Below, piece by piece: positions 30,390 through 52,528 of a stretch of 56,108 bases of DNA. Origin of the DNA: Ignavibacteriota bacterium. Its GTDB lineage: Bacteria; Bacteroidota; Ignavibacteria; UBA10030. Both the position numbers and the translations under genes were made by a program. Each line of letters begins with the position of its first letter. Position 1 is the first letter of the stretch. Location: contig PLMK01000042.1 of assembly GCA_003142475.1 (NCBI GenBank), positions 29,079 to 85,186 on the forward strand, given 5' to 3'. A model generated the notes under the pieces. The model was not told the DNA's origin. It saw nothing but the letters and a program-made list of their open reading frames with translations, and searched no databases.

Positions 30390-30448
30390 GCTCACAGCTT
30401 GCTATTTTGTTTAATTATAATCGAAATGAGATTCCTTGAACGGTCAGC

Positions 30449-31288
30449 TCAGACTGCAACATTACCTCTTCTTTCTTCAAGCATACGGCGTGTTTCATGC
30501 GCACGTTCTGCAGTAATAGGATAGAATTTTAAAGCAATAATTGCAAATAATGCTGTGATCGATGTGGCGCCAGATAAGAACAGGCGCATGATAAGGAATG
30601 TATTGGGATCCTGAGCACCGCCAAGTTCACTCCTAAAACCAGCGAGCCAAATGGTCAAGCCGACACCCAAAGAAGCTAGTGACAATGCCGATTTCTCCAG
30701 CCATGAGAACACCGCACCAAACACACCTTCACGGCGCTGGCCGTATCGCAATTCATCTTCATCGCATATATCAGCCATCATGGATTCAAGCAGGATCTTC
30801 ACAGCAACCCACATCGGTCCGCAAAGAAGTGGATCGATCAGAATAATAGGATCAATTGCAACAGTGCCGATATAATATAAATTGTGGCCTGGTTGAAAAA
30901 TGAACCATTTCATAATACCGCCAAAAACATTTAACGAGTAAACAATATAGAGGGCTTGTTTTTTACCAAATTTATTTGCGATCCATGTGATGAGTGGAAT
31001 AAATGCAAATCCGGTGATAGCATAACCCGATGAGAGTAAGCCCTTCCATATACTGCCAAGTGCAATATCGCCGTTTGCCATATAATAGACCATGACAAAA
31101 TGATCTATATTTGAAGCCAGTATACCTGCCAGAGTATTTAATATAATGATGCTGATCAGTATCTGGAATGGCCGGCTCTGGAATGCTTCTCTGGCGGTTG
31201 TGAACAGTTTTACTTTTTCCTGACGTTCGATTTTTTTTGCAAAACGTTCTCGTACAAACAGACCCGGAAGCATGCCTATTCCACTCAT
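30449..31288 (-). CDS. GPH-family sugar:cation symporter, C-terminal part after an in-frame TAG
   Basis: This frame is the direct continuation of 31304-31918: the TAG at 31304-31306 is followed, without any shift, by five codons and then the ATG at 31288 used here as a nominal start. It holds the second half of a 12-helix transporter, with the C-terminal signature MMADICDEDELRYGQRREG and FSWLEKSALSLASLGVGL, typical of glycoside-pentoside-hexuronide (MelB/GPH) symporters. Its role would be uptake of galactosides across the inner membrane. On its own it lacks the N-terminal sugar- and cation-binding helices, so it is unlikely to function unless the stop is read through or is an artefact. Confidence 0.75.
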   Translation of the reverse strand: MSGIGMLPGLFVRERFAKKIERQEKVKLFTTAREAFQSRPFQILISIIILNTLAGILASNIDHFVMVYYMANGDIALGSIWKGLLSSGYAITGFAFIPLITWIANKFGKKQALYIVYSLNVFGGIMKWFIFQPGHNLYYIGTVAIDPIILIDPLLCGPMWVAVKILLESMMADICDEDELRYGQRREGVFGAVFSWLEKSALSLASLGVGLTIWLAGFRSELGGAQDPNTFLIMRLFLSGATSITALFAIIALKFYPITAERAHETRRMLEERRGNVAV

Positions 31289-31303
31289 GATAATAATTCC
31301 AAC

Positions 31304-31918
31304 CTACCACGCCACTATTATGACGCCTGTCATTTCCACTTTACTACCTGGGGGCAGTTTTGACGCAAAATACGCCGAGCTGATAACTGCAGCCAGCGGA
31401 ATGATCCATTCATATAAAAATTCTCCCGCCTTATGAAAAAAAGCAACATATGCCATGACATGATTACGCTCGTTATAATCGGGTGTCATTTCATATGTTA
31501 AAGCTTTAAATGGCACAGCAAAAACAGAATAAAAGGTATAAAAGAGAATCTGCATAAGTATAAAATAGATAATCTTCAATGTAGGGCTCCAGGCATCAGG
31601 GACCATCCATATAAAACCGAAAGTGATTCCCATTAATATTGCTCCGACAACAATAAATGGTCGGCGCCGTCCCCATCGGGAATGAAAATTGTCAGAAATT
31701 TTACCCATAAGAGGATCAATAAATGCATCTAAAAATCTAGGAATTGTCAGTGCTATACCAACCCATGCTGCGTTTAATCCAAGTATCATGACATATGCAG
31801 TTCTGGCAACTGTATTAATACCGATATAACCGAACATATTGCTGAATCCACCTACACCCAGCGCTATCTTTTCCCGAAAATGGACTTTATCTTCAGATTT
31901 AAGTTGTGACTTTTCCAT
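31304..31918 (-). CDS. GPH-family sugar:cation symporter, N-terminal part ending at an in-frame TAG
   Basis: The 204 residues have the N-terminal half of a GPH symporter: GVGGFSNMFGYIGI, the DPLMGKISDNFHSRWGRRRP loop motif between helices 2 and 3 (DPxxGxxxDxTxxRWGRxRP in the family), and helices to about residue 195. The frame stops within a helix, at TAG after VIIVAW, where homologues continue into the RExF loop; the next codons in the same frame read VGIIIMSGIGMLPGLFVRERF in two pieces. The ATG overlaps the GH42 stop as TAATG. Together with 30449-31288 this is one gene of about 490 codons with a single nonsense codon. Confidence 0.82.
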   Translation of the reverse strand: MEKSQLKSEDKVHFREKIALGVGGFSNMFGYIGINTVARTAYVMILGLNAAWVGIALTIPRFLDAFIDPLMGKISDNFHSRWGRRRPFIVVGAILMGITFGFIWMVPDAWSPTLKIIYFILMQILFYTFYSVFAVPFKALTYEMTPDYNERNHVMAYVAFFHKAGEFLYEWIIPLAAVISSAYFASKLPPGSKVEMTGVIIVAW

Positions 31919-34009: not shown

Positions 34010-36199
34010 TCATGTACAAATCCGATCGAACTCATCCCATGCGAACCATTTCATTTCCAGCGGCTTCAAGAAGATATTCGCCGATCGTCCATCCGCATTG
34101 TAAACTGTGGTGTTCCGATCCTGCTCGGAATTGTTTATGACAACGAACTGTTTGACCTCAGGATAGCAGGCGCAATCAGTATTGATATCGGTACTGAACC
34201 ATCTTCTCAATCCATCTTCCTGCCCGGATACCCACAGGATGGTGCGGTATAATATTCGCATGTTCTGCGCGTTGTGTAAATAATTCGTAAAATAAACAGA
34301 CCTGCCCTTGCCAAATTTGTTCGTCGAAAGGAGCACAGCATTCGGAGTGCCGGCCAACAATTCAGCACACTCACTATTCAAATGAACGGATGATCTGACA
34401 GTACCGAGGTCTATTTTCTCCACTGCATCTTCAAGTATAAAATGCCTTTGATTCACATCGGGTCGGATATTTTTTGCCCACGAAAGCCTGTTGCCGATCT
34501 CCTTCTCCACTCCAAGAACATCTGCAAGCTGGAAAAATCGCCCCTGGTATTCGTACGCTGTCGAATCCTCGACACCGACAAATCCGCCTCCGTTATCAAC
34601 CCAGGCGCGTATTTTCTCCACGATCTCCGGATCAGCCCAGTTTTTGCCGCCGCTCCATGAACTTCCAACGCTGCCCCAATTGATGATGGTCCCGATTTCT
34701 TCACTGATGCCATTCTTACGTATGTCATCGAAACTTATGAATTCGATCTCTGCAGGGAATCCGCTTAAGAACTCGGGGATATGTCCCTGCGGCCAATTAT
34801 CGTTATGCATCCACGAACGCATCCTGCCCCAGCAATCTAACAATGCCACTTTCTTTGCAACGTTACACGGAATTGTCTTTTTGGTTTTGTCAAGAACAGT
34901 TCGAAATTCGTCAGCCAATTCCTCGACATAATTCAAGAAATCAGGATATTTGACAGCGAGATCGAGATAGCCGCCGAATCCGATCCTATCAACACAGCGT
35001 CTTAGTAATGCTCTTCGGATACTTTTCCACCACTTCTTGCACTCTTTGATTGGGTCGCCGTTGCCTTTGAAAACCGGTTCATCCTGAAGATTTACTTCGA
35101 AGAAGTATGGATACAACCTGACCTCTTTGATAATATCTCCCGGAACGTCGGAGATCCTTCTAAGCTCCACGCCACTTAGACAAGGTCCGATGATGCCGTC
35201 GAAACCGAGCTTTTCAAATCCGTCCAGATAAGGTTCCGTTCCGATCCAATGGTCACAGAAAAACAATATTGCTTTCTTGTTGGCCCCGTGAACTTTCTCA
35301 ACACACTTCTGAGTGTAGGCACGTACAAATTCCTGAACAAAACCCATCCAATCCAAAAATTGTTTTTTGGGAATCCTATATGACGCATTGAAGTAACCTT
35401 CATCGACGATATCTTCGCTTCGCAGGCGATATCCCTTTTGCTTTTCAAACTCATCCAATGCGAGAGCACTTATCGGATCCAAATACCCGCTCCAATCCTG
35501 GTAAACATTCTCTCTCTTCTCGTTTTTTATCAGAGGAAATTGATAAATCATGGAAGTGAAGCGGACATAATCCGTATCGGGATGCGTCTCAAGCCATTGA
35601 TCAAGATATTTCAACAGATGTTCTCCCGTCTGGGGCTGGCGCGGATCGACTCCCATCTGATGATCACCGGTCCAATTATTTGTGATATAATTGTACATCG
35701 AGGTCGATTCCCAGATTTGATACACGAGGAAATTGATAGTGTAGACATGCCACTTGATGGGATTCCTTATCAGAACTTCGCCGCTTTCCAGATACCGCCA
35801 ATCTCGAACATCGATAACTTTATTCGCAGTACGGTCGACGACTTCCCAGTATTTTTCAGGAGCATGGTCCGTATCTATCCTGAACTGTTCCTGGCTGTAT
35901 CCCTTTTGAATTTTAATCTTCAGTTCGCCGTCGGCGTTGCATGTAACGGGATATGACATAAGGAATTTCTGCTGGCATTGACCGGGATGGGATTTCGCCC
36001 ATGCCTGGTCAGCTCTTATAAGACAGATGGTGGAGTAAACATCGGGTCCTATGCAGAGTATCTCCGGCGAAAGTATGGTCCCGTCGCTGTCGCGAACCGC
36101 ATCGACTCCCCATTTTTCGCATAGCATCTTCACTTCCTTGTCCATTCCTTTCTGGGCAGGAAGCGTGAAATGGCCTGTTAATTTATTTTGTGTCGTCAT
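34010..36199 (-). CDS. GH112 beta-galactoside phosphorylase (galactosyl-rhamnose or galacto-/lacto-N-biose type)
   Basis: About 729 residues from the ATG at 36199 (a TTG four codons upstream also opens the frame). It follows the Bifidobacterium galacto-N-biose phosphorylase plan closely: GRFTLP-like opening (GHFTLPAQKG), WGVDAVRDSDGT, KYWEVVDRT, the acid-catalyst region FCDHWIGTEPYLDGF, and C-terminal GGFVGVEDSTAYEYQGRFFQLADVLGV. GH112 enzymes use phosphate to split a galactosyl bond and release alpha-galactose-1-phosphate in the cytoplasm. Members act on Gal-beta-1,3-GalNAc/GlcNAc or on Gal-beta-1,4-L-rhamnose. The galactanase and GH105 neighbours favour the rhamnose substrate, because that linkage attaches galactan to rhamnogalacturonan I; the sequence alone does not settle it. 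Confidence 0.9.
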   Translation of the reverse strand: MTTQNKLTGHFTLPAQKGMDKEVKMLCEKWGVDAVRDSDGTILSPEILCIGPDVYSTICLIRADQAWAKSHPGQCQQKFLMSYPVTCNADGELKIKIQKGYSQEQFRIDTDHAPEKYWEVVDRTANKVIDVRDWRYLESGEVLIRNPIKWHVYTINFLVYQIWESTSMYNYITNNWTGDHQMGVDPRQPQTGEHLLKYLDQWLETHPDTDYVRFTSMIYQFPLIKNEKRENVYQDWSGYLDPISALALDEFEKQKGYRLRSEDIVDEGYFNASYRIPKKQFLDWMGFVQEFVRAYTQKCVEKVHGANKKAILFFCDHWIGTEPYLDGFEKLGFDGIIGPCLSGVELRRISDVPGDIIKEVRLYPYFFEVNLQDEPVFKGNGDPIKECKKWWKSIRRALLRRCVDRIGFGGYLDLAVKYPDFLNYVEELADEFRTVLDKTKKTIPCNVAKKVALLDCWGRMRSWMHNDNWPQGHIPEFLSGFPAEIEFISFDDIRKNGISEEIGTIINWGSVGSSWSGGKNWADPEIVEKIRAWVDNGGGFVGVEDSTAYEYQGRFFQLADVLGVEKEIGNRLSWAKNIRPDVNQRHFILEDAVEKIDLGTVRSSVHLNSECAELLAGTPNAVLLSTNKFGKGRSVYFTNYLHNAQNMRILYRTILWVSGQEDGLRRWFSTDINTDCACYPEVKQFVVINNSEQDRNTTVYNADGRSANIFLKPLEMKWFAWDEFDRICT

Positions 36200-36241
36200 A
36201 TTCAATCTCAATTCAGATTACTAATCCTGATCTATGATATC

Positions 36242-38948: not shown

Positions 38949-40670
38949 TTATTTCATCAAAATCATTTTCAATGTAGTCGTTGTTTCGGAACTCATCAGT
39001 TTGTAGAAATAAACACCGCTGCTTAAATTATTTGCGGTAAAAGTAACATTATGAGATCCTACATTTTGAACTTCGTTCACCAAAACTGCCACTTCTCTGC
39101 CGAGGATATCGAATACTGAGAGTCGCGTCATTCCTTGGGCTGCGAGTGTATAGGAGATCTTCGTGCTCGGGTTGAAAGGATTCGGATAGTTTTGGCTTAA
39201 TTCAAACTTTGCCGGCAATGAATTGAGTGTTTTGGAAACAGCTGTAATCTGTTCCGGGAACCAGTTCAAATCGCCGAGTGCTTTTCCATCTGTACCTGCC
39301 GCTGCAAGAGTGGTGCTTGAGTATCGCAAATTTTCCGGAACCGGATACCCTTGTGTTGTTGCCCAGTTTGAGGGAATTCCAGCTTCCCAGCTAATTACAC
39401 CAGCCGGATCAGTGATAGGCGGCATTTTATACAAATACGGACGATAACCATTTGCACTATACAGCGTGAAGCTTAAATCAATTAATGGCGCCATTGCATC
39501 GGCTGCAAGCGTATCAAGCGCTGGATTAAAACCTGGATCAGTGCTATCATTGTTTGCTATATTGATGAGGGGCCACTTTACTTTATCTGTGCCCATACCT
39601 GGTATAGCTGAAACAAAGACCATTGTTTGACAGCTATATGTGTTCCACTTAACTGTATCTTGCGGCGGCCAGCAATACACATTATTCGTGATATTGATAC
39701 TCCGGCCAGCTTCCGTCAAAGGCATAAACGGAGTTGTCAAAAGCGTATCTGATAGAGTATCTAAAGTGATTAAACCGGAGAACCATTTACCTGAACCTGC
39801 TGGGTTTCCCCACGATGTTGGTTGACTTGTCGAACCCACATTCCAAAAAACGTTATTACGGACTACAGCATTATTCATATTATAAAGCTGGAAAATACCT
39901 TGTTGCACGGTATTGTACATCGTATTATGCTCAAAATCTAAATATATTGGCGCACGGCTTCCGCCGCCCAACACCAATCCGCCAAAACAGAAGAAAGTAT
40001 TGTTACGGAAAATTGCCGTATCACAGGGAACTGCTATCGGATCACCAGTTTCGGTCCATGCAAATCCAGGATTTCCTGGTGAATCATGCACACTGTTCCG
40101 GAATTCGCAGTTCGTGATATAGAAACTGCAGTGAGCATGTGCCCAAGTATCAAAGAGATTCGGTGTTGCCTGAGGACCAACAATATTTTCAAGGACACAA
40201 TGATCGAAATAAAACACATGATAGTCTCCAACCGGCACAACAAAACGGCCTGTGTTTGAAGCGCTATCCGCACGTGTACCAACGAAATATAAACCTTTTA
40301 ATGTCAGCGTATCATTTCCCTGCGGTTCAAAATAATCACCGATCGATGAATTATCTTGCCTAATACCGGGCATAATCACAGGGGGCTTGCCGGTCACGGG
40401 ATTTACTTTTCCGATAACTGTAATGTTACCTTTGACTGTAATCGGCGCGTAGGAGAGAAACGATGTATCCTTCGAACCGGTATTCTGCAGAAGGAATACA
40501 GTATTTGGTTTAACATAGCCGCCAGCAATAGTATCGCTGTTGATAACAGCATCGAAAGAAACCGTGCTTGCCCATATACGAATAGTATCAGGAGCAGCCG
40601 CGATCATAAGTGATGAAAACGATAACAGCAGCAGCATTACCAAAGACATTGAAATTAACATTTGTCTCAT
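38949..40670 (-). CDS. Secreted right-handed beta-helix protein with T9SS sorting domain
   Basis: A 573-residue protein with a signal peptide (SLVMLLLLSFSSLMIAAA) and a GAAAGGA ribosome-binding site. Residues about 60-330 contain repeated short strands with Asn ladders (FYFDHCVLENIVG, FYITNCEFRNSVH, AIFRNNTFFCFGG, AVVRNNVFWNVGS), the pattern of parallel beta-helix proteins such as pectate lyases and related polysaccharide binders. The last 80 residues are a type-A T9SS domain (LSQNYPNPFNPSTKISYTL ... SGVYFYKLMSSETTTTLKMILMK region), so it is exported to the cell surface. It is co-transcribed with the TonB-dependent receptor 176 bp upstream. A lyase role on pectic polymers or a surface binding role are both possible; no catalytic motif was identified. 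Confidence 0.85.
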   Translation of the reverse strand: MRQMLISMSLVMLLLLSFSSLMIAAAPDTIRIWASTVSFDAVINSDTIAGGYVKPNTVFLLQNTGSKDTSFLSYAPITVKGNITVIGKVNPVTGKPPVIMPGIRQDNSSIGDYFEPQGNDTLTLKGLYFVGTRADSASNTGRFVVPVGDYHVFYFDHCVLENIVGPQATPNLFDTWAHAHCSFYITNCEFRNSVHDSPGNPGFAWTETGDPIAVPCDTAIFRNNTFFCFGGLVLGGGSRAPIYLDFEHNTMYNTVQQGIFQLYNMNNAVVRNNVFWNVGSTSQPTSWGNPAGSGKWFSGLITLDTLSDTLLTTPFMPLTEAGRSINITNNVYCWPPQDTVKWNTYSCQTMVFVSAIPGMGTDKVKWPLINIANNDSTDPGFNPALDTLAADAMAPLIDLSFTLYSANGYRPYLYKMPPITDPAGVISWEAGIPSNWATTQGYPVPENLRYSSTTLAAAGTDGKALGDLNWFPEQITAVSKTLNSLPAKFELSQNYPNPFNPSTKISYTLAAQGMTRLSVFDILGREVAVLVNEVQNVGSHNVTFTANNLSSGVYFYKLMSSETTTTLKMILMK

Positions 40671-40846: not shown

Positions 40847-43825
40847 TTAAAAGTTCCATCGCAATCCAATATCTGCGGTTAAACCATAACTATTTTCTGA
40901 TACAGGAAGATTATTTTTTCGAATTGTATACAGGTCGGTTTCATTATTAAGATTGTTTACATCGCCATAGACTTCCATATTGAACCATGGCAATCCTTGC
41001 TTGATAACGATATCCCATCGTCGATATGTTGCTTTATCGGATCGCAGCATCCACCAATAGTTAGGTTGATTAAACACTTCTGATTGATAGATCATAGAAG
41101 CAAGAATAGAAAATTTCCCGTAATCGTACCCAATCGATAAATTCACAACATCTGAGGGCTGCTGATAGAGTTTATCGGTATACGACGTGTCTATAGGCTG
41201 AGGTACTCTTGTATTGGTCATAATTGTTTTCGTAAATTTTGCGGCAGAAAAGACGTGTGTATAGTTTACATTCAACACTAAATTATCCAACGGATGCGGT
41301 AAATACCAAAAATGCGTCTGCCATTCCGATTCAATTCCCCATACGTTTACACGAAACGGGTTGTTGATGTACGTTTGGAGAGTACAGACGCTTGCTGTAA
41401 GGAGATTTGCAAAAGGATACCCATTTGCCGCTGCTAACGATTTAGTAAGATAGACTTGTCCAGGATTATAGATCTCATTGTCTATTTGTTTTAAAAATCC
41501 ACCAACAGAGAACAACCCGATAGTATTATTATGTAGGGCAACTTGAGCGTCATAGTTATGCGATTGTTCAGGTAATAATGCCGTATTATTCCAATACATT
41601 GTATACAGACTTGCGTTGTACGCCCACGTCGGAACAAAACTTTGATAATCGGGATATGCCAGCGTGTTTGTATACGCAAGTCGAATACCTATTGCATCCG
41701 AAAGATCAATTTTAGCACTAACATCAGGCAGCCAATATCTGTACGTATTTTTCGCGGTTACCGATGAATCAGGCCAAGCTTGACTCGTATTCGTTACTAA
41801 ATAATTATTAAAATGTAACGCCGTGTAGGATGTTTTCAGCTCTTGATATCTTACACCAGGTATGATCATTAGCCATGAGCCCACATTTACTGTAGTCATA
41901 ATATATCCTGCAGTGCGAGCTTCATTTCCGGAATAATCTTGGTATCTACTTGCCACATAATTAGGATCAAATACCGGCTGGGAAGGCGATGAAATTGTCC
42001 CCGATCTGTACGATTTCAAAACATGCAATACTTGATCAAGGACATCTATATTCGCCGACGATACCATGGAATATCTGCCATTGAGAAAATTCCCGAAATT
42101 CACACTAGGATCAATAAGCCCTGCATAGCCAACTTTACCCGCTCCTGATGGATCCCAATTATATGGAGGGTTTTGTAAAAAAGGTAATTGCGTTACAAGA
42201 TATGCACGAACGGTCGCCTGAGTGCTCGGAGATCCAATATTCATAATGCCATCAGTCTCGTCATAATTGTAATACCTGGTTGTGTATTTATACACACCTC
42301 CGACCTTTACAGCCATAGATATTTGATCTGAAAGATTCAACTTTTTTTCAAGATCGAGAGATGCTTGTCGATCATCCTGTTTTGTAAAGCTGTTCCACCC
42401 TGTAAGGGTTGTCCACTGCATATTCGACGGATTAACCAGATTCTGACCCATCTGAGCAACCGCTGAAGGAGTGATGTTAAACGGAATTGATGTAGTTGCT
42501 GCGCTTGTAAAATTTGTATACCAACTATAAGGAGCAATATTGTCGGAATACGCATTCGAAAGTTTTGCGTTGATGGTCAACGAACCAAATGATTGTTTAT
42601 AGCTTAAAATGTTCGAGAGAACATCAAGATTGGCTGTTTCCCGCTGTGCCCCAAAAACATAAGATCCACCCTGAACTGTTGTAGGGTACAGTTCTGAATA
42701 TGTATCAGTGTTTGTTGACCCTCGACTGAAAAGATTGAGAAACGATATATCTCCTTCGGGCAGCTGATAATCCAATGTTACAGTGCCAGCATATCGTTTC
42801 TGAATGGACTTAATAAATTCAAGCGTTGTGGAATACATCTGGATACTATCGGGATAATTCCATGAATTTATTTTACTGTTGTCATAATACGCGCTCATTT
42901 GATCATTCGATAAATTTTGCCTTTGTACTATACCCTGCACAAACACACCAAACTTATCATCAAAAAATCTTTTTTCAACGCTCGCAACAAATTTGTAATC
43001 CCCTAACGAATACACGAGACCTTTATATCCTCCTTGTGCGATAAACGAAAATGTAGGCGCACCTTCAACATTCGATTTTGCACGGCGAATATCGAAGTTC
43101 ACTGTACCACCAATGGCGGCCGCATCCATATCTGGTGTTACGGTTTTATACACTTCAATTCCTTCGAGACTATTTGATGAAATCATACTTAAATCACTTC
43201 CGCGGTCGCTCGAACTTGTTGCAGGAAGAGCGACTCCTGCTATAGTAATAGAATTATATTTTGGTTCAAGTCCACGAATAACCACTTGCGTGGCTTCACC
43301 ACCGTTCCGTACAACTGAAACACCGGGCAATCTGCCAATGGATTCTGCTGCGTTGGCATCCGGGAGTTCCTGGATGCGTGCAGATGAAACTACATTCGTA
43401 ATATTATTAGAAGTTAACTGTTTATTAATGGCTGCGTCCTGACCTCGGGCCTGAGCTGTAACGATTACTTCTTGACCTTCAATTGCCTGAGGTGATAAAC
43501 GGAATTCCTGTTCAAATACACCATTTTCAGGAATTGTCACTTGTACGGTGACTGGCTGATATCCAATGTAGGAGGCCTTTAAAGTCTGCTGACCTGCCGG
43601 CACTCCATAGATAGTTATAGAACCATAAACGTCTGCAGAAGCCCCTAAACTTGTATTGAGAACTACTATGTTCGCTCCAATAAGCGGATCATTTGTTGTC
43701 TTATCAAAAATGTGTCCTTTGATAGTGCCAGATCCGGCAGCGTATAAGGATTGAAAGATTAAAGAAAATGCTATTACGACAGCACAAACAAGTGAAACCC
43801 GAAAACGAAATGTACCAATAGCCAT
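40847..43825 (-). CDS. TonB-dependent outer-membrane receptor with carboxypeptidase-regulatory-like domain
   Basis: A 992-residue receptor with a strong AAGGAG site. A signal peptide is followed by a carboxypeptidase-regulatory-like domain at about residues 33-118 (GTIKGHIFDKTTNDPLIGANIVV), then the plug domain (RIQELPDANAAESIGRLPGVSV, VVIRGLEPKYNSITIAG, VNFDIRRAK) and a long beta-barrel ending in a C-terminal Phe (IGLRWNF). The plug wording is that of the TonB-dependent receptor group found with surface carbohydrate genes. No SusD-like lipoprotein is encoded nearby, so it is not a classical SusCD pair. It would import oligosaccharides using TonB-coupled energy, most likely products of the galactanase. 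It is divergent from a membrane regulator that probably controls it. Confidence 0.92.
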   Translation of the reverse strand: MAIGTFRFRVSLVCAVVIAFSLIFQSLYAAGSGTIKGHIFDKTTNDPLIGANIVVLNTSLGASADVYGSITIYGVPAGQQTLKASYIGYQPVTVQVTIPENGVFEQEFRLSPQAIEGQEVIVTAQARGQDAAINKQLTSNNITNVVSSARIQELPDANAAESIGRLPGVSVVRNGGEATQVVIRGLEPKYNSITIAGVALPATSSSDRGSDLSMISSNSLEGIEVYKTVTPDMDAAAIGGTVNFDIRRAKSNVEGAPTFSFIAQGGYKGLVYSLGDYKFVASVEKRFFDDKFGVFVQGIVQRQNLSNDQMSAYYDNSKINSWNYPDSIQMYSTTLEFIKSIQKRYAGTVTLDYQLPEGDISFLNLFSRGSTNTDTYSELYPTTVQGGSYVFGAQRETANLDVLSNILSYKQSFGSLTINAKLSNAYSDNIAPYSWYTNFTSAATTSIPFNITPSAVAQMGQNLVNPSNMQWTTLTGWNSFTKQDDRQASLDLEKKLNLSDQISMAVKVGGVYKYTTRYYNYDETDGIMNIGSPSTQATVRAYLVTQLPFLQNPPYNWDPSGAGKVGYAGLIDPSVNFGNFLNGRYSMVSSANIDVLDQVLHVLKSYRSGTISSPSQPVFDPNYVASRYQDYSGNEARTAGYIMTTVNVGSWLMIIPGVRYQELKTSYTALHFNNYLVTNTSQAWPDSSVTAKNTYRYWLPDVSAKIDLSDAIGIRLAYTNTLAYPDYQSFVPTWAYNASLYTMYWNNTALLPEQSHNYDAQVALHNNTIGLFSVGGFLKQIDNEIYNPGQVYLTKSLAAANGYPFANLLTASVCTLQTYINNPFRVNVWGIESEWQTHFWYLPHPLDNLVLNVNYTHVFSAAKFTKTIMTNTRVPQPIDTSYTDKLYQQPSDVVNLSIGYDYGKFSILASMIYQSEVFNQPNYWWMLRSDKATYRRWDIVIKQGLPWFNMEVYGDVNNLNNETDLYTIRKNNLPVSENSYGLTADIGLRWNF

Positions 43826-43980: not shown

Positions 43981-44240
43981 TTAAAACGGAATTCAGATTC
44001 TTTCAGGTCGAAGTAAAACTTATTCAATCAATACCATTATGCTTTCTCATTTTGTGTTTTATAAGACCTAGAAAGATTCAATACCGTTAAAAAGTGCAAG
44101 GAGAATGAGTATTATGCTTGACTATTTAGAGGATTATAAGTGATTTTGCAAAACTAAAACCGTTATAAAACCGTTTATTAACATTTTTAGGGGGTATTTC
44201 AATAGGGAAATATAGTGTTTGCTTTTAACGACGTTTATTA
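43981..44240. promoter_or_regulatory. Cluster of CCGTT/CGTTTATTA motifs between receptor and regulator
   Basis: The divergent gap holds repeated motifs: CCGTTATAAAA and CCGTTTATTAA side by side from 44160 and 44171 (11 bp apart, about one helical turn), an exact second CGTTTATTA at 44232-44240 inside the regulator promoter, ACCGTTAAAAA at 44083, and the inverted form TTAAAACGG at 43981. This is a plausible operator array for the regulator at 44254. The remaining gap 43826-43980 shows nothing else. Confidence 0.45.
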
Positions 44241-44253: not shown

Positions 44254-45564
44254 ATGGCTGAGCAAAATAATGTAAATACACCCTCCAGTAAAGAAATAAA
44301 ATCCATCGTCAATGTCGTGCTGCAAAGCAAGGAGTTTAAAGACTCACCTATATATTCAAACCTGCTTTCGTACCTTACGCAATCCACTCTGTCAAAAAAT
44401 ATTCCAAAAGAAACTACCATAGCCATTGATATTTTCGGTAAGGATTCGGGTTTTAATTCAAATAAAGATTCGACAGTACGTCATCACATTCTCGTGTTAC
44501 GGGATAAACTAGATAACTATTACAAGAACGAAGGCAAAGAAGATAAATTCAGATTGATTATACCTAAAGGACATTATGAGATTCAACTCATACCTTCAAG
44601 AAATGAAAAACCAAAAATATTGAATCGTCTCATTTCATCACTTAAACGCTGGGAAGTAGCCGTTATCATAATCTTATTAATCATTAATCTCTTTTTCATT
44701 TTTCGTCTACCAAGTGTAAACACTCTCTCTTCCATCACTCAAACGCAATATTCTGTCGATCCCCAGGATGAGGTCTGGAGTCCTTTCTTTAAAAATGGTT
44801 ATCCTGTGAGTATTATTTTAGGGGATGATTTTTGGCTGGATGAATACTGTCCGGATTACAAACGTTACCGCCAAGTTCGGGATTGGAAAATATCTTCCGA
44901 GAATGATTTATCAGATTTTTTAATAAAATATCCTAAAGCAAATTTAGTAAAGTCCGAAATACCAGGAATTCCATTCGGTGCTACCGATAATTTATTGGAT
45001 GTTCTTCACGTCGTATATCATTTTCAAAATGATGTATCCCTCTTCATGTCTTCAACACTCTCTCTTGATAAAATTCGAGATCATAACATCATCTATATCG
45101 GTGAATTCAAAAACCTACGAATTTTAAATAAGATTTTTTACAAAACGCCTCTTCGTTATCAGTATTACCCAGACGAACGCTTGTTTATTCTTGATGAAAA
45201 AGGTAACGTCCGAGATTCGTTTCTCCGGGTTGAAGCACCTTACGAGCAACAAAATAAATATAACGTGGATTATTCACTATTAGTTAAAATGCCCGGATTC
45301 ACGAAGGAAAATTTCATGTTCATTGTTGGATTTGGGTACGGCGGACGTTTGGAACGCACAAAAATGCTTGCAAATACTGAATTGCGGATGAAATTTATAG
45401 AAGATATCAAGAAGGTAAATAAATCTGTACCGGAATATTTTATTGCTCTCTTCGAAGTCAAGAGCATCGAAAGGACCGGATTTACTAACGAACTGAAATA
45501 CTTTAAGGAAATCCCAGGAAATTTCTTTTCAGAATCCTCACAGGATAGCAGCAAATCGAATTAA
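44254..45564 (+). CDS. Membrane-anchored winged-helix regulator with extracytoplasmic sensor-like domain
   Basis: A 436-residue protein, the only clear plus-strand gene here. Residues about 15-113 match the winged-helix-like domain often found at the N-terminus of adenylate-cyclase/TolB-type regulators: SNLLSYLTQSTLSKNIPKE, FGKDSGFNSNKDSTVRHHI, LRDKLDNYYKNEGK and IPKGHYEI. One transmembrane helix lies at about 133-152, with basic residues before it, placing the DNA-binding part in the cytoplasm. Residues 155-436 form an extracytoplasmic domain with no named family (VSIILGDDFWLDEY, HNIIYIGEFKN, FMFIVGFGYGG). The arrangement parallels CadC/ToxR one-component regulators. It is divergent from the TonB-dependent receptor gene and probably controls it and itself. 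Confidence 0.78.
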   Translation: MAEQNNVNTPSSKEIKSIVNVVLQSKEFKDSPIYSNLLSYLTQSTLSKNIPKETTIAIDIFGKDSGFNSNKDSTVRHHILVLRDKLDNYYKNEGKEDKFRLIIPKGHYEIQLIPSRNEKPKILNRLISSLKRWEVAVIIILLIINLFFIFRLPSVNTLSSITQTQYSVDPQDEVWSPFFKNGYPVSIILGDDFWLDEYCPDYKRYRQVRDWKISSENDLSDFLIKYPKANLVKSEIPGIPFGATDNLLDVLHVVYHFQNDVSLFMSSTLSLDKIRDHNIIYIGEFKNLRILNKIFYKTPLRYQYYPDERLFILDEKGNVRDSFLRVEAPYEQQNKYNVDYSLLVKMPGFTKENFMFIVGFGYGGRLERTKMLANTELRMKFIEDIKKVNKSVPEYFIALFEVKSIERTGFTNELKYFKEIPGNFFSESSQDSSKSN

Positions 45565-45891: not shown

Positions 45892-47028
45892 TTATCTCAG
45901 CAAAGCCGTTGCGCACCACAGCACAGGCGCCTGACCATGCAAGTCTCCAACATTTCGTTTGCGATCATAATAATACTGAAGTTCATTCTTCTTACTTGTC
46001 CCCTCACATACTTCATGTGTATCCGCATGATCATCAATTGTTTTTATGATGCCGAGCCATCCTTTTCGTGCAGCAGGCCCATATATTGTTTCATCCAGTA
46101 GCCCGTTTTTGACTCCGGTGATAAAAGCAAATGTAAACATTGCGGAACATGAAGTTTCCGGCCATGCGTCTGCTTTATCAATGAGTTGATGCCACATACC
46201 AGTTGTGTCCTGATATTTCAGCAGCGTTGCCATCATTTTTTTATACCCTGCAAGTATTCTGGCTTGTTGAGGATGATCGGCATTCAACTCTTTCAACAAG
46301 AGAGACATACCACTCGCCATCCACCCATTTCCGCGTCCCCAGAAATATGGAACATCAGGTGCATGATAGAAGAGGCCGTTAGATTGCTGCAGTGAATCAA
46401 GATACATGACCATCTCCTTCGCTGCTCTGTCTAAATATTTTTGGCTGCCTGTTGCACGATACGCTTGAGTTTGCACTGCTGTAATCATAAACATATCATC
46501 GATCCACAATCGGGTTTGCCAGGTTAGTCCTTGTTCATAGAAGGAATGAGATTGTGGCGTCACTCGGGGCCCTTCCGGTGGTCCCCATTGCTTGTCGGCC
46601 ATTTGTATTCCTACATCCAAATATTTTTGTTCTTTGGTTTGTAGATATAACTCAAGCGGTACTGCTCCAAAAACTGTAAAATCGACGTGATCAGGAACAG
46701 GAACCATGGTTTTTGCAGAGTCGAAAAGCGGTGTAAAACGATCGACAAGATGTTGAAGCAATACTTGATCATTTATGATGCCGGCAAATTGCAACGCTCC
46801 GTACCAGGTGCAAACTTCGGGATATGTAATAGTGGTTGATGTATTGATGGCAGAATGAGGAGTCGCGACAAAACGTTCGGCAACCCGTCTTCCGATTTCT
46901 TGCGGAGAAGATCCATCCGGCCATGATAAAAATTCATGAAAGGATTTTCTCTGTGATAGCAGCTGGGTATAACACCCAACTATAATGAAGATGCTTATGA
47001 GAAATACCCACCGCACGATTTTGTTCAT
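45892..47028 (-). CDS. GH105-type unsaturated rhamnogalacturonyl/uronyl hydrolase, lipoprotein
   Basis: About 378 residues from the ATG at 47028, which starts a compact lipoprotein signal (MNKIVRWVFLISIFIIVGC); ATG codons at 47037 and 47064 are also in frame. The (alpha/alpha)6-barrel family is recognised from TWQTRLWIDDMFMITAVQ (catalytic Asp in the WxDDMFM motif), YFWGRGNGWMASGM, and MWHQLIDKADAWPETSCSAMF. GH105/GH88 enzymes remove the 4,5-unsaturated uronic acid left by pectin or rhamnogalacturonan lyases. A periplasmic, lipid-anchored location is likely. It is convergent with the regulator gene and close to the receptor and beta-helix genes, which supports a pectin/rhamnogalacturonan theme for the region. 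Confidence 0.9.
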   Translation of the reverse strand: MNKIVRWVFLISIFIIVGCYTQLLSQRKSFHEFLSWPDGSSPQEIGRRVAERFVATPHSAINTSTTITYPEVCTWYGALQFAGIINDQVLLQHLVDRFTPLFDSAKTMVPVPDHVDFTVFGAVPLELYLQTKEQKYLDVGIQMADKQWGPPEGPRVTPQSHSFYEQGLTWQTRLWIDDMFMITAVQTQAYRATGSQKYLDRAAKEMVMYLDSLQQSNGLFYHAPDVPYFWGRGNGWMASGMSLLLKELNADHPQQARILAGYKKMMATLLKYQDTTGMWHQLIDKADAWPETSCSAMFTFAFITGVKNGLLDETIYGPAARKGWLGIIKTIDDHADTHEVCEGTSKKNELQYYYDRKRNVGDLHGQAPVLWCATALLR

Positions 47029-47085
47029 CGTAATCATCGGCGCTCTTGGGAGTGATTGTGACATTCGATTTGTGAGAGTGTTTAC

Positions 47086-47387: not shown

Positions 47388-47486
47388 CTTCCTCTCAGTA
47401 TATGGTGTCAAGAGTCCCGCTGTACGGGATGCCGAACAGCAGCTTTTGTTCCAGACACAGCCGAAAGTTTGCTCGTCTAATCTGCT
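47388..47486 (-). repeat. 99-bp leader-like repeat, copy 1 (no gene follows it)
   Basis: Aligns without gaps to 52430-52528, with about three quarters of positions identical. On the minus strand it ends in a TGAGAGGAAG ribosome-binding-like block, as copy 2 does, but no start codon or gene follows. The hairpin arms (47417-47427 and 47432-47442) carry two mismatches. Its other end overlaps the stop codon of the receiver gene, marking a likely rearrangement boundary. Confidence 0.75.
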
Positions 47487-47970
47487 ATTTTTCTTCACTG
47501 TCCCTTAATGCTTCTTCCGTTTGTTTGCGTTCCTGAATAAGCTTCCACTCGCGCAAAATGCGCTCTATCGTGTGGGGCATTTCCTTAAAAGCTTCCGTAG
47601 ACTTCACTATATAATCGAGCGCTCCAGCTTTCTTCGCCTTGACAGCAATTTTCTCATCGCCAGAACTGGTAATTACCACGATTGGAAACAATCCGGCTTC
47701 TGGCGGAGACGTCAGCACTTCTAAAGCTTTTCCATCGGGGAGGTGTATGTCTATCAAAGCTATGTCCGGCAATGAAGTCGCAATGATGTTGCGATACTCC
47801 TTCAATGAGCCTGCAACCTTCAATGTATAATTCGGTTTAGCGGATTGAATAGTATGACGCATGACTGCAACATGTGTCGGTTCATCCTCTACAAGAAGGA
47901 TATATGGCGAATGTGATTTGGGGGATGAGGAGATTTCTGGATTTGTGTGCTTTTTCTTAAAAAGTGCCAT
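47485..47970 (-). CDS. Receiver-domain protein ending in a sensor-kinase linker (truncated hybrid kinase?)
   Basis: About 161 residues from the ATG at 47970, preceded by AGGAG; 11 upstream codons are unsupported. After a basic start (MALFKKKH) comes one receiver domain: acidic pocket in LLVEDEPTH, phospho-acceptor Asp in IALIDIHLPDG, Thr/Ser in VVITSSGD and Lys in DYIVKSTE. The C-terminus, RILREWKLIQERKQTEEALRDSEEK in two parts, is the coiled linker that in the neighbouring hybrid kinase leads into a PAS domain, but a TAG ends the protein there. It is either a stand-alone response regulator or the front of a kinase whose PAS and kinase parts were lost; the leader-like repeat overlapping the stop favours loss. 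Confidence 0.85.
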   Translation of the reverse strand: MALFKKKHTNPEISSSPKSHSPYILLVEDEPTHVAVMRHTIQSAKPNYTLKVAGSLKEYRNIIATSLPDIALIDIHLPDGKALEVLTSPPEAGLFPIVVITSSGDEKIAVKAKKAGALDYIVKSTEAFKEMPHTIERILREWKLIQERKQTEEALRDSEEK

Positions 47971-48237
47971 GGTAATACTCCTGCTATATTGTATACCGCA
48001 CAACTAACTTCGGAGATACTTTTAAAAAGTTCGCTGTACAAAATATTCAGCCGCACTATGGTTATACAATTCTTCTTCCGATCATTTATTTTCTTACTTA
48101 TTTTGTTAATCGTTTTTTCATTTAGATCTCCCTTAAGGTTCTTTGCACATTAGGACATATACCATCCGAAAATTTTGCGTCAGTATATTCGTTGATATAC
48201 TCTTCAGCCTATCCCCAATATCCTTATATTGATAAAT

Positions 48238-51200
48238 TTATTTTTCCCTTTCATCCAACACTTCTCGTAATTTCCGCAGAACTTCATCTGGACTGTATGG
48301 TTTCTGAATAAAACCTTTCGCTCCGGCTTTATAAAGTTCAGACTTCACATGCGGTTCAAAGAATCCGCTCGCGAAAATTACACTGACATTCGGATCAATA
48401 TCTCTAAGTTTTTTATGCACATCCGTCCCCGTCATTCCCGGCAAGCCCATATCGGTGAGGACAATATCAATCTCTTTCTTATGTTGTTTGTACACTTTGA
48501 TCGCATCGTTGCCATCCTGTGCTGTATATACTTTGTATCCTTTGGATTCAAGCAAAAGACGCACTATCTCTATGAGGGCATCTTCATCCTCTATAAGTAA
48601 TAGAGTCTCTGTACCGCCTGTTGTAAATGGCTCAGCTGATAAAGAAGCATCTGCCTGTTGTTCACTCATTATCGGAATTGGGAAGTAGAGCCGAAATGTC
48701 GTTCCTCGTCCCAATACGCTCTCCACATCGATGAAGCCATGATGTGACTGTACAACTCCATAGACAACAGCGAGGCCAAGTCCGGTTCCCTTCCCTTGTT
48801 CTTTTGTCGTAAAGAATGGATCGAATATTTGGCGGCGCGTCGCCTCATCCATTCCTTCACCGGTATCGGTAACACTGACACAGATATATGAATCTTGGTC
48901 AGCGGCGGGGAATTTTTCTTGTACTTGGCCCTTAGTTTGTTTCTCAGCTCTGATGGTTAGCAAACCACCTTTTGGCATGGCATCCCGGGCATTCACACAG
49001 AGATTCAACAGCACTTGATGGAGCTGTGTGCGGTCGGCAATGATTAATGGAAGTTCTTTATCAACATCCTCTATTAAAGTGATTATTTTTGGGAAGGTTT
49101 GCATGAACATAGAGATAAGCTCATGTATCAAATCGACGATGCTCATAGGTTCGGATATGACATCCGTTTTCCGGGCGAATGTGAGAATCTGCCGAACAAG
49201 TGCAGCGCCACGCCCGACAGCATTGTTAATGATTCCCAGACTTTCACGAAATTTTTCCGGACTCAACGTCCCTTGTTCCATAATCGTGGAGTACCCTAAA
49301 ATAATCCCGAGGATGTTATTGAAGTCATGCGCAATACCGCCGGCAAGCGTGCCAATGCTCTCCATTTTTTGTGATTGAAATAATTCCTTTTGGAGTTTCT
49401 TCTGTTCTGTGATATCCTGTCCTTGTGCAATTGTAGATACAAGTGTCTGGCCATCTGCTGCATAGATTTTTGCTGAACTCCATAGGACACTGTGAACATT
49501 CCCATCCTTGCAGAGAATAGGAATTTCAACCGTTATTTGGTGATCGCCCTCTGAGGTTTGTACAATGAGAGATAAAGAAGATTTTCTGCTCTCGGCAGGG
49601 AAAAGCATTTCCAGATGCTTACCGATAACATCGTGAATCGTATAGCCCGTTAGCCGTTCTAGTGCCTGATTGAACCGTGTGATTTTAAAATGAGGATCCC
49701 AGACAATAATGGGCGCATTCGCGAAACTAAGTAGGTTCTCAAGATAGTCGTGGGTTTCCCGCAGCGTTTCTTCCGCCTGCTTGCGCTCGGTGATGTCCTG
49801 CACCGTCCCGACGATGAAAATAAGATTCCCCACGTCATCATATTTGCCCAGGAAAGTCGAGAAATAGTATCCGATACTTTTGTCCGGACGGAGGAACCGT
49901 TGTTCATATGAGCCCTTTTCATGAGATTCCATCGCCTTCCGTATCAATTCTTTATCTCGCTCGTGATCCTTGGGCCACGGTGATAATGCCATGATTGAAT
50001 CGATTTGTGGAGTGAATGTTTTAGGATCAAGTTGAAATGTTTTGAACACTTCCTCCGACCATTCAACATCACCAGTCCTCACGTCCCATATCCAATGGCC
50101 TAATTGAGCCATTTTTTGAGTTTCATTTAGTTGTCTTTCGCTCTCGCGCAACGCCTCTTCGGCTTGCCTGCGCTCGGTAACGTCAATGGTGTACCCAGCA
50201 AGGTAACGTGGCTTTCCTTCGATATGAAGTGGAAATTTAATTGTCGTATAGTATCGGCCATTGAGTTCCTCATCAACAATAATCTCTTTACCTTCTTTTA
50301 GAATTCTCATATCGTCTGCAACCATACTCTTAGCAAGCTCGGATGGAAAAAGGTCTTCCATGTTTTTACCAAGTAATTCCGCCATCGGTTTGCCCAGCAT
50401 TGTTTCAAAGTTTTTACTCAGCCGAATTGCGCGAATATTCTCATCTTTGAAGAAGACATACACTGGACTGTGATCCATAAATTGTTTGAAAATTTCCTCG
50501 CTATCTCGTAATGCTTCTTCTACCCGCTTGCGCTCAGTGATATCATGAATAATTGAATGAAGAACATCTTTTCCCTTCATTTCGATTCTACTGCTAAACA
50601 CTTCAACATCTCTAATCGATCCATCGGCCCTGCGGTGACAAAATTCAAAGTGGGTTCGCCCTTCCAATTTCACTTGATGCATTAGATCATTCACTTCTTC
50701 ATGGATAAGTGTATTGATCTGATGTATATTCATTTGCTTAAGCTCTTCGCGTGTCCATCCATAGTACTGGACCGCAGCATTATTCGCATCAAGAATTGTA
50801 CCAGTATCGGGATCCAAAATAATCTTGATCGCCGAATGATTCTCGAACAATTTCCGATAGCTTTCCTCACTCTCCCGCAAGGCTTCTTCTGCCTGCTTGC
50901 GTTCTGTGATGTCACGTGCAGAAGATAAGGCACCAGTCACATTTCCACTTCTATCCTTAAGTACACGGCACCACCAGGCAAGCAGACGCTTCTCTCCATC
51001 TTTTCGCCGCTGCCAGCTCTCTATGTAGATTATATCTTCATTGCCATTGAAGAGAGGCTGAGCAACATTATAAGTATCTTGATCACCTTCGAAGTAATAA
51101 GAAGCCTCTTTTCCGATGACATCATTGCCAAAGAAATCCATTCCGGCTTTATTTGCCCAAGTGTAAATTTTCTTATTATCAACTTCCATGATGATGTCAG

Positions 51201-52422
51201 GGACAGCCGCGAGTATAGCTTGTTGGCGCATATTAACGGCGGATAATTCTTCCTCTGCCCGTTTGCGTTCAGTGATGTCCAACATTGAAACAACAGATTG
51301 GTGAGTTGCTGGGATTAATCCAATAGATAGTGTTGTGTCCCTGACCTCTCCCTTGGCGTTGAGTAAATGAACATCATATCGGTTGGGAACGCTCTCGGGT
51401 TTTTGATAGCGTAGTTGACTATTTCTCCTCATCAGTTCAAGACTGTCAGGCGCAACATATTTTGTCCAGCTTGTTCCAACCAATTTTTCTGGAGAGTAAC
51501 CTGTTACAGAAAGACATTCATTATTAGCTAACGAAATAATCGTATTCTCATCAACAATCATTGTTGCATTGCCAGTGTTCTCGAATATACTTCGATAAAC
51601 ATCCTGTGATTTCTTCAATTCCTCTTCCGCCCACTTGCGTTCGGTGATATCTGTGATAGTACCAACATAACCGACTATTTTATTCTTCTCATCCTTTTCC
51701 GGAACTGCTTGACCTATCACCCAGGCAATTGTTCCATCCTTCCGAACAAAACGATATTCTGCATAAGAAGCATTGTGTGCATGTATTGCTTTTTTCCAGC
51801 CGCTGCTCAGCTTTTCTTTATCGTCATTATGAACTGCGTTGAACCATCCGTTTCCCAATGCTTCTTCTTTCGACAAGCCTGATATTTGGCACCATCGCGG
51901 GTTTACATACGTAGTAGATCCTTCCGCATCTGTCTGAAAAATCCCTACGGGCGAATTTTCTGCAAGCACCTGAAATCGTTGCTCACTTTCGCGCAATGAA
52001 TCTTCTGCCAGATGACGTGTTTGTTTTTCCTTGACTTCGTCAAGCGCACGTTTAATAGCTAATGGAAGTCTTGCCATACGATCCTTTAAGACATAATCGA
52101 CAGCTCCCTTCTTTATAAGATCTATGGCAATATCTTCTCCGATCGATCCAGAGACGCAGATAAAGGGAATTTCCGGACGCAAGTCGTTGGATAATTGCAA
52201 TGCCCCGAATGCATCGAATCCAGGTACACTGAAATCACTTAAGATGATGTCATAATTATTACCGCGAAGTAAAGAAGTAAACTCCTTTTTATTCTCAGTA
52301 CATTTTATGCTGAGATCATATCCGGCATCTATCAGCAATTCTCTGATGATCTCGACGTCTTTCAGCGAGTCCTCAAGATACAGGACTTTTAACGATGTCT
52401 TTTCAATCGTCTTTTGTTTCAT
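48238..52422 (-). CDS. Hybrid histidine kinase: receiver, seven PAS, kinase core, receiver
   Basis: About 1,394 residues. The ATG at 52422 has GAGAGGAAG ahead of it; the 28 codons upstream read through a hairpin and were excluded. Order: receiver (LYLEDSLKDVE, DIILSDFSVPG) at residues 1-125; seven PAS units separated by DITERKxAEEALRESEE-type linkers, beginning at roughly 140, 265, 390, 515, 640, 755 and 885; HisKA with His in GGIAHDFNNILG near 1030; HATPase with VLLNLCVNARDAM, DTGEGMDE and GKGTGLGLAVV; and a C-terminal receiver (DIVLTDMGLPG). There are no membrane helices, so it senses cytoplasmic or diffusible signals. The kinase type is that of soluble hybrid kinases using the C-terminal receiver in a phosphorelay. 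Confidence 0.93.
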   Translation of the reverse strand: MKQKTIEKTSLKVLYLEDSLKDVEIIRELLIDAGYDLSIKCTENKKEFTSLLRGNNYDIILSDFSVPGFDAFGALQLSNDLRPEIPFICVSGSIGEDIAIDLIKKGAVDYVLKDRMARLPLAIKRALDEVKEKQTRHLAEDSLRESEQRFQVLAENSPVGIFQTDAEGSTTYVNPRWCQISGLSKEEALGNGWFNAVHNDDKEKLSSGWKKAIHAHNASYAEYRFVRKDGTIAWVIGQAVPEKDEKNKIVGYVGTITDITERKWAEEELKKSQDVYRSIFENTGNATMIVDENTIISLANNECLSVTGYSPEKLVGTSWTKYVAPDSLELMRRNSQLRYQKPESVPNRYDVHLLNAKGEVRDTTLSIGLIPATHQSVVSMLDITERKRAEEELSAVNMRQQAILAAVPDIIMEVDNKKIYTWANKAGMDFFGNDVIGKEASYYFEGDQDTYNVAQPLFNGNEDIIYIESWQRRKDGEKRLLAWWCRVLKDRSGNVTGALSSARDITERKQAEEALRESEESYRKLFENHSAIKIILDPDTGTILDANNAAVQYYGWTREELKQMNIHQINTLIHEEVNDLMHQVKLEGRTHFEFCHRRADGSIRDVEVFSSRIEMKGKDVLHSIIHDITERKRVEEALRDSEEIFKQFMDHSPVYVFFKDENIRAIRLSKNFETMLGKPMAELLGKNMEDLFPSELAKSMVADDMRILKEGKEIIVDEELNGRYYTTIKFPLHIEGKPRYLAGYTIDVTERRQAEEALRESERQLNETQKMAQLGHWIWDVRTGDVEWSEEVFKTFQLDPKTFTPQIDSIMALSPWPKDHERDKELIRKAMESHEKGSYEQRFLRPDKSIGYYFSTFLGKYDDVGNLIFIVGTVQDITERKQAEETLRETHDYLENLLSFANAPIIVWDPHFKITRFNQALERLTGYTIHDVIGKHLEMLFPAESRKSSLSLIVQTSEGDHQITVEIPILCKDGNVHSVLWSSAKIYAADGQTLVSTIAQGQDITEQKKLQKELFQSQKMESIGTLAGGIAHDFNNILGIILGYSTIMEQGTLSPEKFRESLGIINNAVGRGAALVRQILTFARKTDVISEPMSIVDLIHELISMFMQTFPKIITLIEDVDKELPLIIADRTQLHQVLLNLCVNARDAMPKGGLLTIRAEKQTKGQVQEKFPAADQDSYICVSVTDTGEGMDEATRRQIFDPFFTTKEQGKGTGLGLAVVYGVVQSHHGFIDVESVLGRGTTFRLYFPIPIMSEQQADASLSAEPFTTGGTETLLLIEDEDALIEIVRLLLESKGYKVYTAQDGNDAIKVYKQHKKEIDIVLTDMGLPGMTGTDVHKKLRDIDPNVSVIFASGFFEPHVKSELYKAGAKGFIQKPYSPDEVLRKLREVLDEREK

Positions 52423-52429
52423 TTGATTA

Positions 52430-52528
52430 CTTCCTCTCAACATGTGGTATTGGGAGTTCCGCTGTACGGGATACCGTACAGCGGCATCTGCTCCCGACAC
52501 ATTCACAAGTTTGTCAGTCTGTTCTGCT
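52430..52528 (-). repeat. 99-bp leader repeat, copy 2 (5' leader of the hybrid kinase)
   Basis: Partner of 47388-47486. This copy leads directly into the ribosome-binding site and ATG of the hybrid kinase. It contains a perfect hairpin (52459-52484). No other copy was noticed in the window. Confidence 0.75.
52459..52484 (-). promoter_or_regulatory. 11-bp hairpin with tetraloop in the hybrid-kinase leader
   Basis: CCGCTGTACGG and CCGTACAGCGG pair perfectly around GATA (TATC on the minus-strand RNA). It lies about 37 nt upstream of the start codon and does not cover the ribosome-binding site. No T run follows, so it is more likely a protein-binding or mRNA-stability element than a terminator. 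Confidence 0.6.

Follow-up and report, generated by a model that had tools for sequence, protein, structure and literature searches.

How is a carbohydrate-utilisation locus controlled when the gene facing its TonB-dependent receptor encodes a DNA-binding protein anchored in the membrane? The question was raised by a stretch of 56,108 nucleotides from an Ignavibacteriota bacterium (GenBank assembly GCA_003142475.1, contig PLMK01000042.1, positions 29,079 to 85,186), referred to below as the window. The original prediction held that the gene at 44254-45564 could encode a one-component regulator which reads periplasmic oligosaccharides directly and switches the locus on, in place of the hybrid two-component or anti-sigma systems usual in Bacteroidota. 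The reading favoured here, with a probability of about 0.7, is that this membrane-bound regulator senses a fragment of beta-1,4-galactan and turns on the divergent genes from a predicted repeat.

Domain architecture of the regulator

The regulator gene (44254-45564, plus strand) is an open reading frame with an ATG start encoding 436 amino acids, and its layout was delimited with a 43-member family alignment. An N-terminal, OmpR/PhoB-like winged-helix (wHTH) domain (residues ~13-113; 44290-44592, plus strand) is followed by a single predicted transmembrane helix (residues ~135-153; 44656-44712, plus strand), located in the only hydrophobic segment found by hydropathy (residues ~126-153), and by a C-terminal part of ~280 residues. 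This part contains an unnamed, putatively extracytoplasmic sensor domain of ~250 amino acids (residues ~169-420; 44758-45513, plus strand), defined by homology to the outer domains of relatives. One segment above the hydropathy cut-off of 1.6 was observed in 40 of the 43 family members, the exceptions being L052 and L070_2, with a second segment, and L069, with none. The count of lysine plus arginine was higher before the helix than after it in 37/43 members, which argues for an N-in/C-out topology; judged by charge, the DNA-binding domain of this single-helix protein is placed inside and the sensor outside. The three-part architecture of the original prediction was thus recovered by open reading frame, hydropathy and alignment.

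The host genome is 3.58 Mb in size, and the regulator has one match in it. Among named records, the nearest with an orthologue are two metagenome assemblies labelled 'Ignavibacteriae', in which the identity is 85% and 73%. Compared with two other species of the genus, the identity was 87/80% for the outer domain and 90/82% for the wHTH, and only 71/35% for the linker plus membrane helix. This contrast in conservation between the outer domain and the linker plus helix shows that the former is genuine coding sequence and not a chance extension.

When compared with Pfam on its own, the window regulator gave no match at E ≤ 10, PF00486 (Trans_reg_C) included. PF00486 was reached at E ≤ 1 by 33 of the 43 family members (best 7e-5), and in a profile-profile comparison the family wHTH matched PhoB/OmpR/CpxR/CadC with a probability of 67% and a pairwise E of 5e-5. 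In this alignment, the family pattern 'VRxYIxNLRKKL' lies on PhoB 'VDVHIRRLRKAL' with the recognition helix in register, and the family 'IPKGHY' falls on PhoB 'VRGTGY'. These comparisons give moderate support to a wHTH of the OmpR/PhoB-like type. Proteins annotated as adenylate cyclase on Sphingobium and Rhizobium plasmids were matched by tblastn in the wHTH only (28% of the query, 32% identity); with the PF00486 matches, this bears out the predicted likeness to adenylate-cyclase-type regulators. Three or four paralogues with similar recognition helices were observed per genome in G234, G265 and G056.

The outer domain and the spread of the family

The outer domain could not be assigned in the original prediction, and this did not change. 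The window regulator matched nothing in NCBIfam at E ≤ 1 and a single PDB sequence by chance (E 2.7), and the family profile likewise gave one chance match among PDB sequences (E 0.52). When the 43 members and four more were compared with Pfam, only scattered single matches, taken as chance (lowest E 0.0024), were obtained besides PF00486. The possibility of an enzyme, raised with the prediction, gained nothing from this remote-homology search, in which no enzyme family was found. AlphaFold, given three sequences in each run, returned a pLDDT of 34.2 for the full-length protein and 35.0 for the outer domain. A relation to archaeal S-layer domains, considered on account of a similar motif, was rejected, as the Granulicella proteins showed no S-layer match in Pfam at E ≤ 10.

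Family members were found in Ignavibacteria, other Bacteroidota, Granulicella (Acidobacteriota), Catenovulum and Novosphingobium. Matches to the window protein at E ≤ 0.001 were present in 20 of 294 relatives' genomes (its own included), at 38 places, one of which covered the wHTH only. A tblastn search of 72,556 plasmid records with the window protein gave, among the matches listed, query coverage of 80% or more in 4 records (Catenovulum, Persicobacter and two of Novosphingobium humi); among the 20 records listed, the match on rhizobial, Sphingobium and Ruegeria plasmids was restricted to the wHTH, two of these proteins being annotated as adenylate cyclase. The wHTH, membrane helix and outer domain could be aligned over their full length in 43 rows, from which the wHTH-only matches L047, L073 and L074 were excluded. 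The profile of these 43 members matched at least 23 of 391 genomes in a class sample (at least 22 beyond the wHTH) and at least 15 of 395 in a phylum sample (at least 12 beyond the wHTH), all lower bounds because at most four candidates per genome were scored.

The Granulicella proteins came from a profile search of six named plasmid records. On Granulicella tundricola pACIX901, four proteins were matched in the wHTH and the outer domain separately, with E values of 1e-11 to 1e-7 for the outer piece. By hhalign, the outer domains of Ignavibacteria and Granulicella gave a pairwise E of 2e-12, and profile-profile comparison with the other plasmid-borne relatives gave 2e-40 for Ignavibacteria and 2e-13 for Granulicella; the probability in the negative control, the outer-domain profile against an E. 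coli wHTH set, was 0.8%. These values among the three groups indicate that the outer domain is one homologous family present in at least three phyla. Among viral contigs, two degenerate DNA patterns selected 8, none of which carried a family member by HMM. Two family members adjoin convergently on a Novosphingobium humi plasmid (L070; 8977-10245, plus strand, and 10248-11699, minus strand), and a second close pair was seen in L147.

Genes adjoining the family members

As predicted, the window regulator is divergent from a TonB-dependent receptor gene (40847-43825, minus strand), whose product has CarbopepD_reg_2 and Plug domains by Pfam. The upstream gene is divergent in 56 of the 58 members having one on the contig: 36/36 from the Ignavibacteria class, 8/8 from other Bacteroidota, 4/4 from Granulicella and 8/10 on other plasmid records. 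Genes were called mechanically for this count, same-strand ORFs of less than 110 amino acids being skipped as probably spurious, and one further member sits at a contig end, outside the 58. A TonB receptor, recognised by HMM, was the upstream gene in 20/36 Ignavibacteria-class members; it was present within four divergent genes in 26/36, and none was called in 10/36. The expected link of homologues to transport or carbohydrate genes therefore holds for many members, not for all. Within four divergent genes, a receptor was called for 2/4 Granulicella members, 1/8 from other Bacteroidota and 2/10 on other plasmid records; these low counts arise because the 'carboxypeptidase regulatory-like' genes of Granulicella were missed by the HMM, which was trained on Ignavibacteria and can miss receptors elsewhere, and because other neighbours are different genes.

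Pfam families of 40 upstream proteins, taken from the best 25 of 47 families, were CarbopepD_reg_2 (20), Plug (12), TonB barrel (10), GH2 (3), sulfatase (2), HYDIN/ASH-type (2), DUF1573 (2) and GH43 (1); two Novosphingobium members (L070) were excluded, and a short ORF beside L033 was swapped for the next gene. On the downstream side, no family occurred in more than 3 of 41 members among the first 25 of 49 families. CarbopepD_reg_2 has a base rate of 24-47 domains per genome in 12 genomes, at which chance would seldom place a divergent receptor beside a given gene; the synteny is given without a p-value, as it was counted among related members only.

Outside the class, the neighbours were more diverse. 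Five upstream proteins from other Bacteroidota comprised two with DUF1549/DUF1553 (followed by DUF1501), two GH2 and one without a match, and the two Persicobacter plasmid members had GH2 upstream, in one case followed by GH30. Genes of the DUF1549/DUF1553 type followed by DUF1501 were seen divergent from L139, L140 and L071; such genes are known mostly from Planctomycetes. The five Granulicella members examined (four on pACIX901 and one of two places on pACIX902) carry no annotation beyond 'hypothetical protein', and each of them has a receptor, a receptor-like gene or a sugar gene as its divergent neighbour. The five sets were a receptor-like gene then a xylanase, a receptor then GH1, an alginate lyase then a receptor-like gene, GH16 then a receptor-like gene, and a beta-1,3-glucanase; the member near the xylanase is ACIX9_RS20075. 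Two of the three Catenovulum members (the third, L145, lacked annotation) had a cytochrome gene and a DUF1553 gene as their divergent neighbours, with a beta-galactosidase, or GH43 and GH115, nearby.

The predicted galactan locus

The divergent gene set of the window lies on the minus strand and was assigned by Pfam. Together with the receptor it comprises a secreted protein with a Por secretion tail (38949-40670), of which a 62% identical counterpart also follows the receptor in L148 (blastp), an unassigned protein of 611 amino acids, a lacto-N-biose-phosphorylase-family enzyme (34010-36211), which we take to be GH112, a GH42 beta-galactosidase (31918-33993), an MFS_2 sugar transporter over two ORFs (30449-31918), a GH53 endo-beta-1,4-galactanase (28743-30395), another GH53 endo-beta-1,4-galactanase with a Por tail and a 71% identical copy in L148 (27386-28738), and a nucleotidyl transferase that is likely a sugar-phosphate nucleotidylyltransferase (25320-26309). 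By what is established about these enzyme families, such a set is indicative of pectic beta-1,4-galactan and rhamnogalacturonan I. The two adjacent transporter ORFs encode the N- and C-terminal halves, separated by a frameshift that is either real or made by the assembly. Convergent with the regulator is a GH88-family hydrolase of the unsaturated uronyl hydrolase type (45892-47064, minus strand; Pfam); no further operator site was found near this gene, and its membership of the regulon is without operator support.

GH53 was scanned for in 18 genomes chosen from the genus and family, and was present in three, the same three that carry a regulator orthologue of at least 73% identity. It was absent from the three other genus members, which have no such orthologue, and from three members of the family whose regulators are all distant. 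The sole GH53 genes of G001 and G005 are in the regulator locus, ~6 and ~13 kb away, and G000 has another GH53 elsewhere in the genome that is interrupted by a stop. The regulator of the third species (L003/L150) shows 73% identity to that of the window, and a GH53 is retained in its locus, while the receptor next to it aligns with the one in the window at only 27% identity over 251 amino acids. Retention of regulator and GH53 beside a receptor that is not orthologous favours sensing of a soluble galactan product over sensing of one particular receptor.

The predicted operator

When the divergent regions of the three orthologues were aligned, AAAACCGTTATAAAACCGTTTAT at 44156-44178 stood out as one long invariant block of 23 bases. 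It is an 11-bp direct repeat, AAAACCGTTAT AAAACCGTTTAT (44156-44178, no strand assigned), in which AAAACCGTT occurs twice with an offset of 11 bp, and wHTH proteins of the OmpR/PhoB type typically bind direct repeats at this spacing (the PhoB box). Most of the flanking intergenic DNA is no longer alike in the third species; closer to the regulator start codon, there is further sequence common to the window and L002. The putative operator ends ~75 bases before the regulator start codon and lies 330 bases from the receptor start. The perfect repeat pattern occurs once in the genome, and with up to 2 mismatches 17 matches were counted genome-wide, compared with 18 for the reversed control; as this is no excess, only one operator site is supported in the genome.

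A motif close to ACnGTTAATTACnnGTTA was obtained de novo from 26 upstream regions (20 Ignavibacteria-class and 6 plasmid-borne, after removal of 17 with proteins more than 55% identical), and its strongest self-similarity was at 11 bp in three runs, which used the same data with different starts. Its log-likelihood was 87.4-89.7, compared with 56.6-71.5 in 20 shuffled sets, given equal starts, and 59.4-66.8 in 10 control intergenic sets, which came from one shared pool and held fewer bases (3931 versus 5639 in one measured). An 11-bp peak was also seen in 4/20 shuffled and 2/10 control motifs, and it is the likelihood that separates the real motif. In a simple period scan, 6/42 regions had p<0.05 at period 11 (L065 excluded), three of which were the window and its two same-genus orthologues; no clear peak was observed with an 18-base comparison window. 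For 16 new regions, period 11 was the highest on average, yet only 1/16 reached p<0.05; the gene starts of L142 and L147 may be miscalled and their upstream regions may be wrong.

Trained on the 20 class regions, the motif was found at p<0.05 in 3 of 22 other regions (L068 of Catenovulum, L139 and L140), with combined p values of 0.007 and 0.017 for two widths, and at this level in 0/4 Granulicella and 0/4 Novosphingobium regions. For the lineage of the window, the case for the predicted operator is strong; for the class as a whole it is fair, and outside the class it is unproven. By eye, a shared sequence close to TTTAACnGTAGCTATAACGG, with TTTAAC at 11-bp steps, was seen in three genomes, upstream of L141, L144 and Persicobacter L069.

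Proposed mechanism and alternatives

The invariant 11-bp repeat and the co-occurrence with GH53 make control of the locus by the regulator, and a galactan-type signal, likely. Beyond the anatomy, the synteny and the repeat, the mechanism is modelled on OmpR/PhoB- and CadC-type proteins. The outer domain would detect directly, in the periplasm, a beta-1,4-galactan fragment derived from pectic galactan or the side chains of rhamnogalacturonan I. The signal would cross the membrane through the single helix, and the cytoplasmic winged-helix domains of two molecules might then sit side by side on the repeat at 44156-44178. So positioned, the regulator would activate transcription of the receptor and of the galactan genes divergent from it, and probably also of its own gene.

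The same parts could be arranged differently. That the regulator instead represses the divergent unit and its own gene until an inducer relieves the repression is unlikely: a repeat ~75 bases from the regulator start and 330 from the receptor start is compatible with auto-repression, but OmpR/PhoB- and CadC-type wHTH proteins are mostly activators which recruit RNA polymerase, and the repeat has a single genomic site. It is also unlikely that the outer domain takes its signal from the divergent receptor, either from the plug or from the N-terminal CarbopepD_reg domain, and not from a sugar, as a form of surface signalling like that of FecA-FecR, which uses another domain. The receptors that are the next divergent gene in 20 of 36 Ignavibacteria-class members, and CarbopepD_reg_2 in half of the 40 upstream proteins, would fit such a contact. 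Against it, no secretin/STN-type signalling domain was found in the window's receptor by Pfam at E ≤ 1e-5. Moreover, the genes upstream of L139, L140, L141 and L144 are of the DUF1553/DUF1501 or GH2 type, and among their first four divergent genes the HMM, which can miss receptors, called none; and the 73% identical regulator of L003/L150 faces a receptor that is not an orthologue.

Sensing of a galactan fragment was further weighed against two other roles for the outer domain. That it is an envelope-stress or general sensor (redox, pH or misfolding), its link to sugar genes being a by-product of gene clustering, is very unlikely. Some members have neither receptor nor sugar neighbours, and the best-known membrane wHTH proteins respond to pH or bile; against this stand the sugar genes or receptors divergent from all five Granulicella members and near two of three in Catenovulum, and the co-occurrence of GH53 with the close orthologue. 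Redox sensing in particular fits poorly with the 30 of 43 outer domains that contain no cysteine. Hardly probable at all is an enzyme, glycan-modifying or phosphorolytic, fused to the DNA-binding domain. Near-invariant polar residues in the 43-member set (D191 in 42, R209 in 40, D339 in 42 and K345 in 38) would fit this reading, but only D339 is kept in the four Granulicella sequences as aligned, where K345 is replaced by R, and the searches of Pfam, NCBIfam and PDB sequences gave no enzyme family.

Relation to known systems

In its general plan the protein resembles the transmembrane transcription regulators of the ToxR/CadC type, with an N-terminal OmpR/PhoB-like wHTH, one helix and a C-terminal outer sensor, and a gene adjoining its presumed target. 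It differs in a sensor unrelated by sequence to any named family, in the ties of many members to TonB receptor or carbohydrate loci, and in having no obvious toxS-like partner gene beside it within the window. As in the hybrid two-component systems of Bacteroides, a single protein local to a carbohydrate locus would lead from periplasmic sensing to DNA; the DNA-binding domain of those systems is AraC-like, whereas here it is OmpR-like, and neither histidine kinase nor receiver domains were among the 24 Pfam families for the 43 members or in the window protein. FecIR-type sigma/anti-sigma systems likewise use an inner-membrane protein for locus-specific control of a TonB receptor operon. No FecR domain was matched by Pfam in the 43 members, the window neighbours are the GH88 and receptor genes with no sigma gene, and the window's receptor, unlike those of FecIR-type systems, is without a signalling domain. 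The wHTH-adenylate cyclase proteins of rhizobia and sphingomonads have a similar DNA-binding domain (32% over ~120 amino acids), but their C-terminal part is annotated as cyclase and the outer domain here lies outside the match; no cyclase, TPR or TolB beta-propeller C-terminal part was among the 24 Pfam families for the 43 members. Closest in kind are the Granulicella tundricola pACIX901/902 proteins, which share the wHTH, membrane helix, homologous outer domain and divergent receptor or carbohydrate genes; their outer domain is ~16% identical in the profile alignment, and no shared operator motif was found.

Proteins of this general plan have been described before, whereas the sensor family itself, its association with carbohydrate loci and its operator seem to be undescribed in the papers searched. 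A census of 50,302 transmembrane transcription regulators reports enrichment in Bacteroidota and, slightly, in Acidobacteriae (PMC10269533). Its main text does not contain 'TonB' and contains 'carbohydrate' once; the supplementary lists may hold family members (PMC10269533). The family is not described in the available portions of papers on Solibacter (PMC3174227), Catenovulum (PMC7953866) and Granulicella (PMC7074687). No title or abstract fitting the sensor family was found in the literature searched, a body that leaves out most subscription papers.

There is an even chance that the outer domain represents a periplasmic carbohydrate sensor of a new class and that the family forms a fourth general route for the control of TonB-receptor/glycosidase loci in Gram-negatives, besides hybrid two-component systems, ECF/anti-sigma systems and soluble regulators. 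Such a route would extend over Bacteroidota with Ignavibacteria, Acidobacteriota and Pseudomonadota, with one protein per locus, one operator per protein and each outer domain tuned to its own glycan, beta-1,4-galactan for the window member. Among the Acidobacteriota and Ignavibacteria are abundant degraders of plant material, and the papers found say little about how sugar loci are regulated in them. A family recognisable by sequence, divergent from a presumed target and, for at least one class, equipped with a predictable operator would allow a putative switch to be assigned to many loci. The neighbouring enzymes would supply a candidate signal for each locus, GH53 here predicting beta-1,4-galacto-oligosaccharides. 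Should glycan binding by the outer domain be borne out, biosensors would gain a new sensor domain.

Other genes of the window

Two further regions of the window were noted. A protein of 2897 amino acids (15747-24440, minus strand) combines glycoamylase and GH94 domains with a weak match to a glycosyltransferase, and is presumably of the cyclic beta-1,2-glucan synthase type. Near the GH88 gene, the reading frame at 47485-52506 (minus strand) encodes, as read from sequence, a 1422-amino-acid sensor kinase with a receiver and many PAS-like repeats, and it adjoins a gene for a protein with a receiver domain.
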